From NCBI GenBank assembly GCA_003352285.1, contig QQVN01000002.1:186001-250000 (forward strand): a DNA stretch of 64,000 nt, written 5' to 3'. This DNA comes from Thermoproteota archaeon. GTDB taxonomy: Archaea > Thermoproteota > Nitrososphaeria > Nitrososphaerales > Nitrosopumilaceae. Below, one piece after another: positions 53,677-58,897 of this stretch (the first letter of the stretch is position 1; each line of letters begins with the position of its first letter). The notes beneath the pieces are model-generated. The model saw nothing but the letters and a program-made list of their open reading frames with translations, did no database searches and was not told where the DNA came from. The position numbers and the translations under genes are program-made.

Positions 53677-54258
53677 ATGTTCACTGGAATCATTGAAGGA
53701 ATAGGTAAAGTTGAGAAAATTGAAAAGAGTAAGAATAGAAGCGCTGTAAAAATGACAGTTGATCTTGGAACAAAATCCAGAGGTCTAAAGATTGGTCAAA
53801 GCGTTGCATTAAACGGAGTGTGTTTGACTGTTACTAAAATTGCAAAAAATAAGGCAAATTTTGAGATGATTGACGAGACAACAAAAAAAACAGATTTAGG
53901 AAATCTAAAACCAGGCAGCATCATAAACATAGAGAGAAGTCTCAAGGCAAATGATCGACTAGAAGGACATTTTGTATTGGGTCATGTAGATGGAGTTGGC
54001 ATAATTAAAAAAATTCTCAAAAAACCAAAGGAAGTTCAAGTCTGGTTTGAAATCCCAAAAAAATTGTCAAAATATGTTGTAAAAAAGGGCTCTATTGCTA
54101 TAGATGGAATTAGTTTGACGGTAGTTGATGTAAAAAAGAATCTAGCATCAGTCTGTCTGATACCTCATACCATCGATGTTACAAACTTTCATACAAAAAA
54201 GATAGGCGACAAGGTTAATATTGAAACTGACATTCTTGGAAAATACATTCTAAAATAA
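53677..54258 (+). CDS. ribC: Riboflavin synthase (alpha-subunit type)
   Basis: The 193 residues show the two-barrel pattern: MFTGIIEGIGKV, GQSVALNGVCLTVTKI, then LEGHFVLGHVDGVGII, GSIAIDGISLTVVDV and a helix with VNIETDILGKYI. It forms riboflavin from two molecules of dimethyl-ribityllumazine. Use of the bacterial/eukaryal-type synthase instead of the archaeal RibC is notable and suggests transfer in the past. It is first in the riboflavin gene block. Confidence 0.95.
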   Translation: MFTGIIEGIGKVEKIEKSKNRSAVKMTVDLGTKSRGLKIGQSVALNGVCLTVTKIAKNKANFEMIDETTKKTDLGNLKPGSIINIERSLKANDRLEGHFVLGHVDGVGIIKKILKKPKEVQVWFEIPKKLSKYVVKKGSIAIDGISLTVVDVKKNLASVCLIPHTIDVTNFHTKKIGDKVNIETDILGKYILK

Positions 54259-54336: not shown

Positions 54337-55005
54337 ATGTCACTAGATGCAGCCATCCATTCACTAAAGCAAGGCGAATTTGTTCTCTTACATGATTCTG
54401 CGGGTAGAGAAAATGAAATTGACATGGTAGTTGCTGCTGAGCTAATCACTCCTGAACATGTTGCAAGAATGCGACAGCATGCAGGCGGCCTACTATGTCT
54501 TGCCATTGACAATGGATTTGGAAAATCACTTGGATTAAGATACATGCATGACATTTTATCAGATACATTTGAAGAGAACTCTAAAGATATGATAATGGGG
54601 CTTGCTCCATACGGAGATCATCCTACATTTTCTATATCTATTAACCATTATCAAACCTATACTGGAATTACCGATAATGACAGAGCCTTGACCATAAAAG
54701 AACTCTCAAAATTACATGATATTGAAAGTCCTAAAAACAAATTTGTTTCTTCTTTTAAGACTCCTGGCCATGTTCCACTATTGATTGCATCAAATGATCT
54801 TTTACTCAAAAGACAGGGACACACTGAGATGTCAATTTATCTAACACAGCTAGCAGGTCTTAAACCCGTTACTGCAATTTGTGAAATGATGGATGCAGAT
54901 ACCTATTCAGCACTATCTGTTGAAAAAGCATCCAAATATGCCAAACAAAATGGTATTCCTTTACTTGATGGAAAGGAACTAGTAGAATACGCTAAGGTGC
55001 ATTAA
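54337..55005 (+). CDS. ribB: 3,4-dihydroxy-2-butanone 4-phosphate synthase
   Basis: The 222 residues begin with the acidic loop HDSAGRENEIDMVVAAELI and have DRALTIKEL and FKTPGHVPLLIASNDLLLKRQGHTEMSIYLTQLAG, the RibB active-site motifs. It turns ribulose 5-phosphate into the four-carbon unit of lumazine. ATG with TTTATA about 28 nt upstream, so it starts a leaderless transcript. RibH follows 3 bp after its stop. Confidence 0.96.
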   Translation: MSLDAAIHSLKQGEFVLLHDSAGRENEIDMVVAAELITPEHVARMRQHAGGLLCLAIDNGFGKSLGLRYMHDILSDTFEENSKDMIMGLAPYGDHPTFSISINHYQTYTGITDNDRALTIKELSKLHDIESPKNKFVSSFKTPGHVPLLIASNDLLLKRQGHTEMSIYLTQLAGLKPVTAICEMMDADTYSALSVEKASKYAKQNGIPLLDGKELVEYAKVH

Positions 55006-55007
55006 TT

Positions 55008-55424
55008 TTGAACATTGCCATTGTCGTTGCGGAGTTTAATGAAAAAATTACATCAAGAATGTTTCAAGTTGCAAAAGAAAAAGCAGAGGTATTAAAACTA
55101 AACATAAAGTATACCTCTACTGTTCCTGGAGCGTATGATATGCCAATTGTCGTAGATGCATTATTACAAAAAAAAGATGTCGATGCAGTAGTGACACTTG
55201 GAGCAATAATAAAAGGTCAAACTAAACATGATGAAGTAATTGCAAATTCAACTGCAAAATCTTTAACTGAATTATCCGTCAAATACAAAAAGCCTGTATC
55301 ATTGGGTATTACGGGACCTGGAATGCAGGAAAGACACGCTCTTGCAAGAATTCGTCCCGTGGCCGAAAGGGCAGTTGAGGCAGTTTCTAAACTCTCTAAT
55401 GAATTAAATAAAATCCAGAAATGA
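55008..55424 (+). CDS. ribH: 6,7-dimethyl-8-ribityllumazine synthase
   Basis: TTG start; 138 residues with the lumazine-synthase pattern: NIAIVVAEFNEKITSRM, TVPGAYDMPIVVDALL, DAVVTLGAIIKGQTKHDEVIANS, and RHALARIRPVAERAVEAV. It joins the butanone phosphate and the pyrimidine to lumazine. It overlaps the next gene (GTP cyclohydrolase III) by 4 bp. Confidence 0.95.
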   Translation: MNIAIVVAEFNEKITSRMFQVAKEKAEVLKLNIKYTSTVPGAYDMPIVVDALLQKKDVDAVVTLGAIIKGQTKHDEVIANSTAKSLTELSVKYKKPVSLGITGPGMQERHALARIRPVAERAVEAVSKLSNELNKIQK

Positions 55425-56167
55425 TTCAGCTTACCATTCTCAAAATTACTGGATATGGCCCTTGGACCCTGACTTTAGGCAGTGATAGAGAGCATGAATT
55501 ACAGATGCTTCAGGCCTCACTGTATAAAGAAATTCAGTCTCAATTTTCTAAAAAAAACTGTATTACATTTCTAAATCGCTCTGATGAATTCTTTGTTGTA
55601 TCAAATGGGCTGAAACTAGAGGACCATATAGAAATTCAAAAAAACTTGGAGTCAAAATTTGATATCCGTCTTTCAATGTCCATTGGGCATGCCGAAAATC
55701 CATTTGATGCCAATCTAAAGGCTTACGAGGGGAAAAAAACAAAAAAAATTCTAAATCAAGAACACAACATCTATGGGATTCTAAACGGTTCGTCTGAATC
55801 AAAAGTTACAATAATGCATCTTGATGTTGAAGACTTGACTTCGCAAAGAAAAACAATGTCTCCGTATGAAATATCATCTAAGATCTTCAAACTTTATTCT
55901 ACCATGTCTGAATTTTTCATAAATTACAAATCATTGACATTCTTTATGGGTGGTGATAATTTTATGGTTGTAAGCTCAAATGATGCAAAATCTGCAGCAA
56001 GAAATTTCCTGGACATGATAAAAAAAGATGGAATAACCTTAAACTGTGGAATCGGAACTGCTAAAACATCTCGTGAAGCAGTCAAGCTTGCAACAAAATC
56101 ACTTGATACTATTAGAGAGATAAGAGATTCCGGAAAAGAAAAGCCTGAAATTTATGAATTGTCATGA
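55421..56167 (+). CDS. GTP cyclohydrolase III (archaeal type)
   Basis: The 248 residues match archaeal GCH III: LTILKITGYGPWTLTLGSDREHELQMLQASLYKEIQ and a repeat half with SKVTIMHLDVEDLTSQRKTMSPYEISSKI...GGDNFMVVSSND. Family members turn GTP into a formylamino-pyrimidine, the first step of archaeal riboflavin and F420 synthesis. The gene overlaps both neighbours by 4 bp (ribH and the amidohydrolase), so it belongs to one translationally coupled set. Confidence 0.93.
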   Translation: MIQLTILKITGYGPWTLTLGSDREHELQMLQASLYKEIQSQFSKKNCITFLNRSDEFFVVSNGLKLEDHIEIQKNLESKFDIRLSMSIGHAENPFDANLKAYEGKKTKKILNQEHNIYGILNGSSESKVTIMHLDVEDLTSQRKTMSPYEISSKIFKLYSTMSEFFINYKSLTFFMGGDNFMVVSSNDAKSAARNFLDMIKKDGITLNCGIGTAKTSREAVKLATKSLDTIREIRDSGKEKPEIYELS

Positions 56168-57354
56168 TTTTAAAAAATCTCAGTGTTTTGTTGGGTAAAG
56201 AATTACATTACAAATCATCTTGTAGTATTCAAATTTCAAAACAAAAATTTCATAGAATCCAAGATAGTATCAAACCAAGCTCAAATGAAAGTGTAATTGA
56301 TTGCGAGGGATTAATGGCAATCCCTGGATTTATCAATTCACATACACACATTGGTGATTCAATTGCAAAAGATTTTACTCTCAACAAAACAGTCGATGAA
56401 AAAATCCATCCATTGTTTGGCGCAAAACCAAAAATTCTAAAAAAATCGAACCCTGCCCATCTTTCAGCATTTATAGAAAATACCTGCAAAAGTATGATAA
56501 AAAATGGAATTACAACATTTGTTGATTTTAGGGAAGGTGGTCTTGACGGGATAGAATTAATTCGTAAGGCAACATCAAAAATTCCAATTCGAGCAATTAT
56601 TCTAGGAAGAATTGAGCATTACAGCTCGCCAGCACAAATAAGAAAAAACTCTCTTTTTCCAAGAGAGAAATCTTCAGAGTTGACAAAAATTCTTGCAAAA
56701 TGTGATGGTTTGGGTATAAGCGGTGCTAATGAAAATAGTGATTCTGTACTAGGATACTATTCTAAAACGAGTAAGCTAAGGGCAATCCATGCTGCCGAAA
56801 CAAAGCAGAGTGTAGATACTTCAAAAAAGACTACAAAAAAATCCGAAGTACTACGTGCACTGAAATTAAAACCACATTTTCTAGTTCATATGACATATGC
56901 ATCCAATAGCGATCTTAACTTGGCAGCAAAAAAAACTCGGGGTATTGTAATTTGCCCAAGAGCAAACGCTGCACTAGCAGAAGGCATTCCCAATATTTTT
57001 CCAATGCTTAGATCACAATGTACAATTGCAATAGGAACTGATAATGTAATGATCAATTCCCCTGATATGTTTAGAGAGATGGATTATCTTTGGAAAGCTA
57101 CAATGGGATTAAACAAAAAAAGAATTGATCCCAGATTAATTCTTAAAATGGCAACAACCAACGCTTCATCAATTTTACATAAGAATATTGGAATTATAGA
57201 ACGTGGAAGGTTAGCAGATCTTGTTTTGATTGATAAACATGCAATTGATTTAGAACCAATGCATAATCCTTACGCATCGCTTGTTCACCGTGCATCTGAA
57301 TCAACAATTCGCACAGTTCTGATAGGAGGAAATGTAGTACATGGTAAGATCTAG
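56164..57354 (+). CDS. Amidohydrolase/deaminase-superfamily protein embedded in riboflavin operon
   Basis: The 396 residues have the metal site of the cytosine-deaminase/TrzA type: NSHTHIGDS (HxH), IHAAET, LVHMTYAS, and IGTDNVMINSPDM with the catalytic Asp. It overlaps GTP cyclohydrolase III by 4 bp and the diaminopyrimidine reductase by 14 bp. Two riboflavin steps lack a gene here: formamide hydrolysis and pyrimidine deamination. This protein is a natural candidate for the deaminase; that is inference from position and family. Confidence 0.88.
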   Translation: MILKNLSVLLGKELHYKSSCSIQISKQKFHRIQDSIKPSSNESVIDCEGLMAIPGFINSHTHIGDSIAKDFTLNKTVDEKIHPLFGAKPKILKKSNPAHLSAFIENTCKSMIKNGITTFVDFREGGLDGIELIRKATSKIPIRAIILGRIEHYSSPAQIRKNSLFPREKSSELTKILAKCDGLGISGANENSDSVLGYYSKTSKLRAIHAAETKQSVDTSKKTTKKSEVLRALKLKPHFLVHMTYASNSDLNLAAKKTRGIVICPRANAALAEGIPNIFPMLRSQCTIAIGTDNVMINSPDMFREMDYLWKATMGLNKKRIDPRLILKMATTNASSILHKNIGIIERGRLADLVLIDKHAIDLEPMHNPYASLVHRASESTIRTVLIGGNVVHGKI

Positions 57355-57997
57355 ACCAAAAATAATTCTTAGCGCAGCTATGACAATTGATGGTAAGATT
57401 GCATCTAAAAGTGGAGATTCCAAACTTTCTTCTAAAAAAGATAAAATCCGTGTACACAAACTTCGTTCAAAAACCGATGCAATACTAATTGGAAAAAATA
57501 CTTTATTGCGTGACGATCCGTTATTGACCGTTAGATATCATAAAGGGAAAAACCCAATTAGAATAATTCTGGACTCAAAAGGTGAAATTCCACCCAATTC
57601 AAAAATTATCAAGACTTGCAAAAAAATTCCTACCATCATTGCTGTATCACAAAATATATCTCAAAAAAACTTGAATCGGTTAAAGAAATTACCTCTACAA
57701 ATAATCTTTGCAGGTACTAAGAGAATCAGCATTCAAAAATTATTAAAAATCCTTTTCAAACAAAAGATACAGACTATATTATTAGAAGGAGGAAGTAAAA
57801 CTAATTGGGAATTTATCAGTAAAGGATTTGTTGATGAGATTATTATCACCATCGCACCAATTGTAGTTGGCGGTCAAACCAGTACCTCTCTGGTTGGGGG
57901 AGAAGGTTTTTTGAATATGCAAAAATCCAAGAAATTTAAATTAAAAAATATAAGTAAATTCAAAAATGAGTTTGTAGTTCATTACAGTAAACTGTAA
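57341..57997 (+). CDS. 2,5-diamino-6-ribitylamino-pyrimidinone phosphate reductase (RibD-C type)
   Basis: The 218 residues are a stand-alone RibD C-terminal reductase: RPKIILSAAMTIDGKIASKSGDSKLSS, DAILIGKNTLLRDDPLLTVR, and TILLEGGSKTNWEFISKGFVDEI. Archaea use this reductase without the deaminase half. It starts inside the amidohydrolase gene (14 bp overlap) and ends the riboflavin block. Confidence 0.94.
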   Translation: MVRSRPKIILSAAMTIDGKIASKSGDSKLSSKKDKIRVHKLRSKTDAILIGKNTLLRDDPLLTVRYHKGKNPIRIILDSKGEIPPNSKIIKTCKKIPTIIAVSQNISQKNLNRLKKLPLQIIFAGTKRISIQKLLKILFKQKIQTILLEGGSKTNWEFISKGFVDEIIITIAPIVVGGQTSTSLVGGEGFLNMQKSKKFKLKNISKFKNEFVVHYSKL

Positions 57998-58032: not shown

Positions 58033-58284
58033 TTGGCAACAAAAAAGAAATCAAAATCAACTAGTAGAAAATCAAAATCAACTAGTAGAAAATCAAAAGC
58101 TACAAAATCAAAATCCAAGAGCAAATCAAAGTCTAAGAAAAAAGCCTTTGGCGGTTATGCAATTAACTTTGGTGGACGAAAAGAAACGGTTGAGCAAGTC
58201 TTTGGTAAAAAACCAATTGCACCAAGTGAAATGACAAAGAAAATTTGGGCATTTGTTAAATCAAAGAAACTTTCAAACAAGTAG
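58033..58284 (+). CDS. Lys/Ser-rich chromatin-like protein with SWIB-like C-terminus
   Basis: TTG start; 83 residues. Residues about 1-38 are Lys and Ser with Thr/Arg and encode STSRKSK twice from a perfect 21-bp tandem repeat (58048-58068, 58069-58089). The rest contains GGYAINFGGRKETVEQVFG and PSEMTKKIWAFVKSKKLSNK, which resembles the end of the SWIB fold. The histone-H1-like tail could bind DNA. It is a candidate chromatin protein. The function is unproven. Confidence 0.78.
   Translation: MATKKKSKSTSRKSKSTSRKSKATKSKSKSKSKSKKKAFGGYAINFGGRKETVEQVFGKKPIAPSEMTKKIWAFVKSKKLSNK
58048..58089 (+). repeat. Perfect 21-bp tandem repeat inside Lys/Ser-rich gene
   Basis: A 21-bp unit starting AAATCAAAATCAACTAG occurs twice without change, at 58048-58068 and 58069-58089. 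It keeps the reading frame, so copy number could change the tail length without frameshift. Confidence 0.8.
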
Positions 58285-58345
58285 CTATTACCTTCTTTTT
58301 CATTTTCTAATTAACAATTATTAAACTCCGTAATTACACGTGTGT

Positions 58346-58897
58346 ATGTCGACCACTTCCTTACGAAAAGATCACGATCTCATTGAGAAAGTCATTAAAT
58401 CAATGGATACTACAGTTCAACTCTTAGAAAGTGGTAAATCTATTCCTGAATCAATTCTTTTACCCGTAATAGATTTTTCAAAAAATTTTACTGATGTATG
58501 CCATCATAGCAAAGAAGAAAATTCATTTTTCCCTGCATTAGGTAAAGCAGGCATGCCAACTAACATGGGTCCTATTGCTGTTATGCTTATGGAACACGAA
58601 AAGTCACGAAAAATTGCATCAAATATGGAACAATCAACCAAAACTTATCTTTCAACTGGAGATGCAACAAAGTTAATCTCAGATATGAAAGAATATGTTG
58701 AACATATTACCGAACACCTCTGGAAAGAAAATAATCGTCTTTTCATGATGGCAGAAGCAAGATTGCAATATGTTGCAAAACAAATTGATACCGAATTACA
58801 TGAGATAGAAGCAAAGAAACTCAAAGAAACTGGTAAGACCAGAGCCGATTATGAAAAAATTGCAGAAGATATTGCTAAACAGATTTCTGAGCAATAA
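58346..58897 (+). CDS. Hemerythrin HHE-domain protein
   Basis: About 183 residues with the hemerythrin-like helical bundle: LRKDHDLIEKVI, FTDVCHHSKEENSFFPALG, MLMEHEKSRKIA, and YVEHITEHLWKENNRLF, providing His and Glu for a di-iron site. Such proteins bind or sense oxygen, nitric oxide or iron. I chose the ATG at 58346; a TATTAAAC element lies about 28 nt upstream. A GTG at 58340 would add two residues. Confidence 0.91.
   Translation: MSTTSLRKDHDLIEKVIKSMDTTVQLLESGKSIPESILLPVIDFSKNFTDVCHHSKEENSFFPALGKAGMPTNMGPIAVMLMEHEKSRKIASNMEQSTKTYLSTGDATKLISDMKEYVEHITEHLWKENNRLFMMAEARLQYVAKQIDTELHEIEAKKLKETGKTRADYEKIAEDIAKQISEQ

Follow-up and report, generated by a model that had tools for sequence, protein, structure and literature searches.

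Bacteria and fungi deaminate the ring of the riboflavin precursor with an enzyme of the cytidine-deaminase fold (RibD/Rib2). Which enzyme does so in archaea is the question raised by a riboflavin operon in a 64,000-nucleotide stretch of DNA (the window; GenBank contig QQVN01000002.1, positions 186,001 to 250,000) from a Thermoproteota archaeon of the Nitrosopumilaceae, whose genome (GCA_003352285.1) is called the source genome below. In this operon an amidohydrolase gene (AH; 56164-57354, plus strand, all coordinates being window positions unless a locus is named) lies between two genes of the pathway. A preliminary description of the locus had proposed that AH might fill a gap in archaeal riboflavin synthesis, at either pyrimidine deamination or hydrolysis of the formamide. 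The linkage and co-occurrence data presented here strongly support that proposal and, of the two reactions, deamination fits, while the formamide step has a candidate of its own in the creatininase family. Taken together, the comparative evidence indicates that AH is very probably the pyrimidine deaminase of the archaeal pathway.

AH is one of six consecutive plus-strand genes, ribE-ribB-ribH-arfA-AH-arfC, with little or no gap between most of them. Its open reading frame (ORF) encodes 396 residues from an ATG start, with no internal stop, and it overlaps the genes for GTP cyclohydrolase III and the reductase, as had been described: the AH start overlaps the 3' end of arfA by 4 bp and the AH end overlaps arfC by 14 bp. 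The product of arfA (55421-56167, plus strand) is GTP cyclohydrolase III (GCH_III, PF05165, E = 2.8e-48). The product of arfC (57341-57997, plus strand), a protein of 218 residues, is the 2,5-diamino-6-ribosylamino-pyrimidinone 5'-phosphate reductase; it matches RibD_C (PF01872, E = 5.3e-52) over residues 6-212 and scores above the archaeal reductase model TIGR01508 (189 bits, cut-off 186.45). Pfam finds no deaminase domain in ArfC. Because ArfC matches RibD_C only, the operon has no counterpart of bacterial RibD's deaminase half. AH itself matches Amidohydro_1 (PF01979, E = 1.6e-39) and PF07969 only among Pfam families, without PF02633, and PF00383 is not among the Pfam matches of either AH or ArfC. 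AH belongs to the NF005552/PRK07213 family (331 bits, cut-off 294), the match to NF005552 spanning residues 2-387. The "chlorohydrolase" name carried by this family is a legacy, uninformative label; nothing here points to a chlorinated substrate.

To quantify how closely AH follows the pathway, we searched 250 Nitrososphaeria genomes for NF005552, RibD_C and GCH_III, calling AH and ArfC at E < 1e-40 with NF005552 and RibD_C, respectively. AH and ArfC were both present in 185 genomes and both missing from 61, with AH only in 3 and ArfC only in 1. For AH and ArfA the corresponding counts were 186 (both), 57 (neither), 2 (AH only) and 5 (ArfA only), which places AH in 186 of the 191 ArfA-bearing genomes. 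The two pathway genes ArfA and ArfC gave similar values: 184 genomes with both, 57 with neither, 7 with ArfA only and 2 with ArfC only. Thus, AH is tied to each pathway gene as tightly as the pathway genes are to each other. Among the 63 genomes that lie outside families f1-f3 (f-numbers denote families in the genome sample), ArfC and AH mark the same 11 genomes.

The same pattern holds across the phylum. In a sample of 250 Thermoproteota genomes that are at least 85% complete, with ArfA called by GCH_III above its cut-off, AH was found in 100 of the 100 ArfA genomes, a figure subject to an ascertainment bias that is weighed below; 78 were found through NF005552, a few of them with inspected loci, and 22 only through A3, a deeper profile built from 22 AH members. 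These 22 genomes, 15 from family f27 and seven others, had given at best weak or partial NF005552 matches. We ran A3 on them and, as checks, on two genomes with good NF005552 matches (G325 and G360). It matched in 24 of 24, mostly over the full length and in all 15 f27 genomes with E values of 1e-62 to 1e-72, and four family-specific residues described below (D65, K88, E124 and N294) are retained in all 24. Since the A3 matches keep this signature, the 22 apparent exceptions are diverged members of the AH family, and the notion that AH is absent from them was rejected. In three genomes (G442, G445 and G451) the A3 match is only partial, yet AH adjoins RibH. Among 14 control genomes, 10, including Methanocaldococcus jannaschii and Haloferax volcanii, have NF005552 matches at E ≤ 1e-3, two of the 14 above the cut-off. 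All of these tallies were compiled from search listings, and the totals agree (GCH_III, 191 and 100; NF005552, 181; PF00383, 144).

The association is also physical. We scanned archaeal contigs with AH only and took the 80 best-matching loci, every one of them from Nitrososphaeria or a close relative. arfA immediately precedes AH in 79 of them, the remaining locus beginning at a contig edge. arfC immediately follows AH in 78; of the two misses, one is a contig edge and the other (L039) has two genes between. The whole run RibE-RibB-RibH-ArfA-AH-ArfC is kept in most. This position of AH beside arfA and arfC is more than chance, and the operon order is conserved in other Nitrosopumilales and far beyond that order. 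Of the 58 AH-bearing genomes that the phylum sample contains outside Nitrososphaeria, 31 have a riboflavin gene no farther than about 4.5 kb from AH. AH directly follows arfA in 13 of 13 ArfA-bearing genomes of family f36 (for which "Sulfolobaceae-like" is a guess), with arfC not adjacent; the two f36 loci that were fully read have the order RibB-RibC-RibH-ArfA-AH. In these relatives an extra RibH-like gene stands beside RibH, as expected for archaeal-type RibC, the assignment that we infer for it. In eight genomes from families f31, f32, f44, f48, f50 and f64, AH adjoins arfC. Other arrangements are ArfC-ArfA-RibB-RibC-RibH-AH in f33, RibB-x-RibH-AH in an f27 genome (G424), RibH-AH in the f38 genomes G442, G445 and G451, and, in one f21 genome, AH divergent from RibB-RibC-RibH-ArfA.

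The residues of AH point to the type of chemistry. A metal site of the form HxH/HxxE/H/D is typical of amidohydrolase-superfamily deaminases, and the roles of the residues equivalent to H209 (metal ligand) and E212 (general acid/base) are established for the superfamily. In AH, the metal ligands H60 and H62 open an HxHxxD motif (codons 56341-56358, plus strand here and for the codons that follow), H209-x-x-E212 is encoded at 56788-56799, the catalytic/metal-site histidine H242 at 56887-56889, and the metal-site aspartate D293 with the adjoining N294 at 57040-57045. All six metal-site residues are invariant, both across a set of 22 diverse homologues and across all 52 proteins of a larger set. 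The intact deaminase-type site ascribed to AH in the preliminary description is therefore real and kept throughout the family, and by its residues the site is of the mononuclear deaminase type.

Beyond the metal site, four residues set the family apart. For comparison we used 25 other archaeal amidohydrolases, drawn from the same genome sample as the AH proteins. D65 (the last residue of HxHxxD), K88 (56425-56427), E124 (56533-56535; within a D-F-R-E motif here) and N294 are present in 52 of 52 AH proteins, and none of the four occurs at the aligned positions in any of the 25 others. Where AH has GTDN, amidohydrolases outside the family mostly have GTDG. The AH of the window is only 20-26% identical to distant Thermoproteota members; the ten invariant positions therefore stand out. 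These four residues would set substrate specificity, and K88 is a possible substrate contact. In a maximum-likelihood tree, which has very long branches on two rows, the 52 AH proteins form one side against the 25 others, with support of 97/91 and recovery in 99% of 200 bootstrap trees. For distant orthologues from five loci and for four haloarchaeal copies, NF005552 is the best NCBIfam model, below its cut-off. The haloarchaeal copies are plasmid-borne (L119, L120, L121 and L122, including pNRC200 of Halobacterium salinarum); they carry the same motifs, with an identity of 32-33%, and are about 50 residues shorter.

The predicted structure of AH is a confident TIM-barrel model with a mean predicted local distance difference test score of 93.8. 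Its best fold matches in the PDB are adenosine/S-adenosylhomocysteine (SAH) deaminases, an isocytosine-specific deaminase, triazine hydrolases and guanine deaminases, with Z scores of about 40-43; the value is 43.1 for both 1p1m and 4f0r. A sequence profile search of the PDB ranks TM0936 first. AH has the same fold as the SAH/methylthioadenosine deaminase TM0936 (1p1m), guanine deaminase (2i9u, 6ohb) and the isocytosine deaminase Vcz (7ww2), on which its model superimposes with Z of 40 to 43 and root mean square deviations of 2.4-3.0 Å over about 360-384 residues, at an identity of just 15-22%. Guanine and isocytosine deaminases take the 2-amino group off a 2-amino-4-oxo ring, which is the chemistry that the riboflavin intermediate needs.

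From these data we infer the following route. ArfA would open GTP to give a formylated pyrimidine nucleotide, the formyl group would be removed by a separate creatininase-family hydrolase, and ArfC would reduce the ribose to the ribityl chain. AH would then take the C2 amino group off its predicted substrate, 2,5-diamino-6-ribitylamino-4(3H)-pyrimidinone 5'-phosphate, to yield 5-amino-6-ribitylamino-uracil 5'-phosphate and ammonia, leaving a phosphatase, RibB, RibH and RibE to complete riboflavin. By analogy with the superfamily, H60, H62, H209 and D293 would bind a single metal ion that activates a water molecule, with E212 and H242 acting as proton shuttles. Attack of the hydroxide on C2 of the 2-amino-4-oxo ring would then release ammonia, as happens in the guanine and isocytosine deaminases that share this fold.

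Could the deaminase instead be a RibD-type protein encoded elsewhere, with AH serving another role, such as clearing damaged intermediates? The source genome does hold one PF00383 protein (E = 5.9e-25), of the fold that bacteria and fungi use for this step, and in the phylum sample PF00383 occurs somewhat more often with ArfA (80 of 100 genomes) than without it (64 of 150). However, that protein is encoded on a different contig from the riboflavin operon and its best model, below cut-off, is ComEB/dCMP deaminase. Moreover, at E ≤ 1e-3 PF00383 has no match in 20 of the 100 ArfA genomes, among them three of family f2 and seven of f36, or in two controls that have ArfA, M. jannaschii and Sulfolobus acidocaldarius; the latter has none even at E ≤ 10. 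Given this distribution, the PF00383 fold could be the archaea-wide solution only if other proteins stood in for it in individual cases, and on the same ground the source-genome protein was set aside as the riboflavin deaminase. A clearing enzyme is also unlikely to be retained and lost exactly with the pathway. We therefore regard this explanation as very improbable. As for a RibD-type deaminase elsewhere in the genome, the lone PF00383 protein means that the fold is not wholly missing, but the protein is dCMP-deaminase-like and its family is lacking from a fifth of ArfA genomes. The RibD deaminase domain performs the equivalent ring deamination in bacteria, but its fold is unrelated to that of AH.

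Little credence can likewise be given to a role for AH as the formamide hydrolase, taking formate off the ArfA product in the manner of ArfB. AH does adjoin arfA in most genomes, and a classical ArfB is not obvious: the one creatininase-family protein of the source genome (PF02633, E = 1.4e-47), encoded outside the window, reaches only 42 bits with NF033501, the equivalog model for ArfB (cut-off 180), and is related to MftE/creatininase models. Set against this, the mononuclear deaminase type of the AH metal site argues for the other reaction, and the formamidases characterised for the formamide step in the accessible parts of the literature are the archaeal ArfB and the creatininase-like bacterial BrbF (PMC9478397), which belong to the creatininase family (PF02633) and so to a family different from AH. 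Genes for PF02633 proteins also occur in riboflavin loci of relatives. One lies directly after arfC in four loci (L038:9882-10628, L039:11512-12252, L069:3536-3850 and, on the minus strand, L131:4954-5700), one heads a Creat-ArfA-ArfC-RibB run (L187:6466-7179), one is divergent beside arfA (L142:7346-7993) and in L134 and L135 one stands opposite AH. Against NCBIfam, the L038, L131, L134 and L142 proteins match MftE/creatininase models better than the ArfB model, for which they score at most 43 bits or not at all (cut-off 180). These creatininase-family genes in or beside archaeal riboflavin operons are probably an unrecognised group of ArfB/BrbF-like formamidases, and the source-genome gene is the candidate formamidase of this archaeon. 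That gene (G000:C5, L002:1444-2178) directly follows one that reads as formyltetrahydrofolate-deformylase-like.

Because several relatives carry this separate candidate in or beside their riboflavin operons, AH is better read as the deaminase than as the formamidase, and the latter assignment was set aside: there are two hydrolases for two hydrolytic steps, with chemistry matching each, which leaves the deaminase role to AH. The earlier statement that neither step had another candidate holds for the window; it does not hold for the genome, in which one PF02633 and one PF00383 protein are encoded elsewhere.

It is also most unlikely that AH deaminates at another point, either on the ribosyl compound ahead of reduction or once the phosphate has been removed, in a pathway order unlike that of methanogens: the form of the substrate cannot be read from sequence and AH lies between arfA and arfC, but gene order differs between lineages, so that operon position says little about reaction order, the reductase passes the archaeal equivalog TIGR01508, and the order reported for archaea, as far as the available portions of the sources go, is reduction and then deamination (PMC13028884, PMC3403918).

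Several observations weigh against AH as the pathway's deaminase. The solved structures nearest in fold act mostly on other substrates and are only 15-22% identical, for which reason the substrate is not readable from the fold. The Fisher p-values for co-occurrence in the class and phylum samples ignore shared ancestry, and the figure of 100 of 100 carries an ascertainment bias because A3 was confined to ArfA-bearing genomes, AH in ArfA-free genomes being judged by NF005552 alone. Three genomes (G265, G331 and G336) have AH and ArfC with no ArfA match, AH lying directly beside arfC in each, and one ArfA genome (G318) has AH with no ArfC match. A further 14 genomes of the phylum sample have an ArfC-like gene with neither AH nor ArfA; in the 12 of these loci that were read (L173-L184; G378 and G439 were left out) there is no AH and no riboflavin operon, and the neighbours checked belong to unrelated families apart from a creatininase-family gene near the ArfC-like gene in L183. 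Finally, 27 of the 58 AH-bearing genomes outside Nitrososphaeria have no riboflavin gene near AH, and the inspected loci of the haloarchaeal plasmid copies have none nearby either.

The remaining genes of the operon are readily identified, all on the plus strand. ribE (53677-54258) encodes a riboflavin synthase of the bacterial two-domain type (PF00677, E = 3.6e-49; TIGR00187, 219.7 bits, cut-off 156.6). It is followed by ribB (54337-55005; PF00926, E = 1.2e-57; above the cut-off of TIGR00506) and by ribH (55008-55424), which encodes 6,7-dimethyl-8-ribityllumazine synthase (PF00885, E = 2.9e-33; TIGR00114, 132.7 bits, cut-off 84.6). Just downstream of arfC is a Lys/Ser-rich ORF of 83 residues (58033-58284) with a histone-H1-like look and a 21-bp tandem repeat. 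A hemerythrin-domain protein (58340-58897; PF01814, E = 3.4e-14) follows downstream of the operon and has a homologue in 28 of the 80 relatives' loci.

A deaminase of this type has probably been proposed before for euryarchaea. In the accessible parts of a 2021 survey of Haloferax (PMC8305020), three gaps in the riboflavin pathway are described, with candidates predicted for two. In its Table 6, HVO_2483 (34% identity to MJ0699) appears as a prediction of Rodionova et al. 2017, in a row between arfC and the phosphatase gap, which is the deaminase slot and hence the pathway slot of AH (PMC8305020). AH has homologues in haloarchaea, and MJ0699 likely belongs to the AH family. A full-text literature search that covered few subscription journals turned up no archaeal riboflavin deaminase whose activity had been tested, and MJ0699/HVO_2483 were named in PMC8305020 only. 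The present analysis adds the wide reach of the gene linkage and co-occurrence, a signature of four residues, the placing of the apparent exceptions within the family, an argument from distribution against a RibD-type fold and a distinction between AH and the creatininase-family formamidase candidate.

AH is found in every ArfA-bearing Thermoproteota genome examined in the phylum sample and in haloarchaea. We think it likely, at somewhat lower confidence than for AH itself, that archaea in general deaminate the riboflavin precursor with a single family of amidohydrolase fold, unrelated in fold to RibD/Rib2 and travelling with a creatininase-fold formamidase, and that the two would take the place of the RibA and RibD-deaminase activities of bacteria. 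Riboflavin and the deazaflavin of coenzyme F420 share the precursor 5-amino-6-ribitylamino-uracil, and the deamination step has been a gap in the archaeal route to both; the evidence names one family for it. If this is true, the step would provide a clear case of two unrelated folds performing one deamination, and there would be reason to rename the family now labelled "chlorohydrolase".

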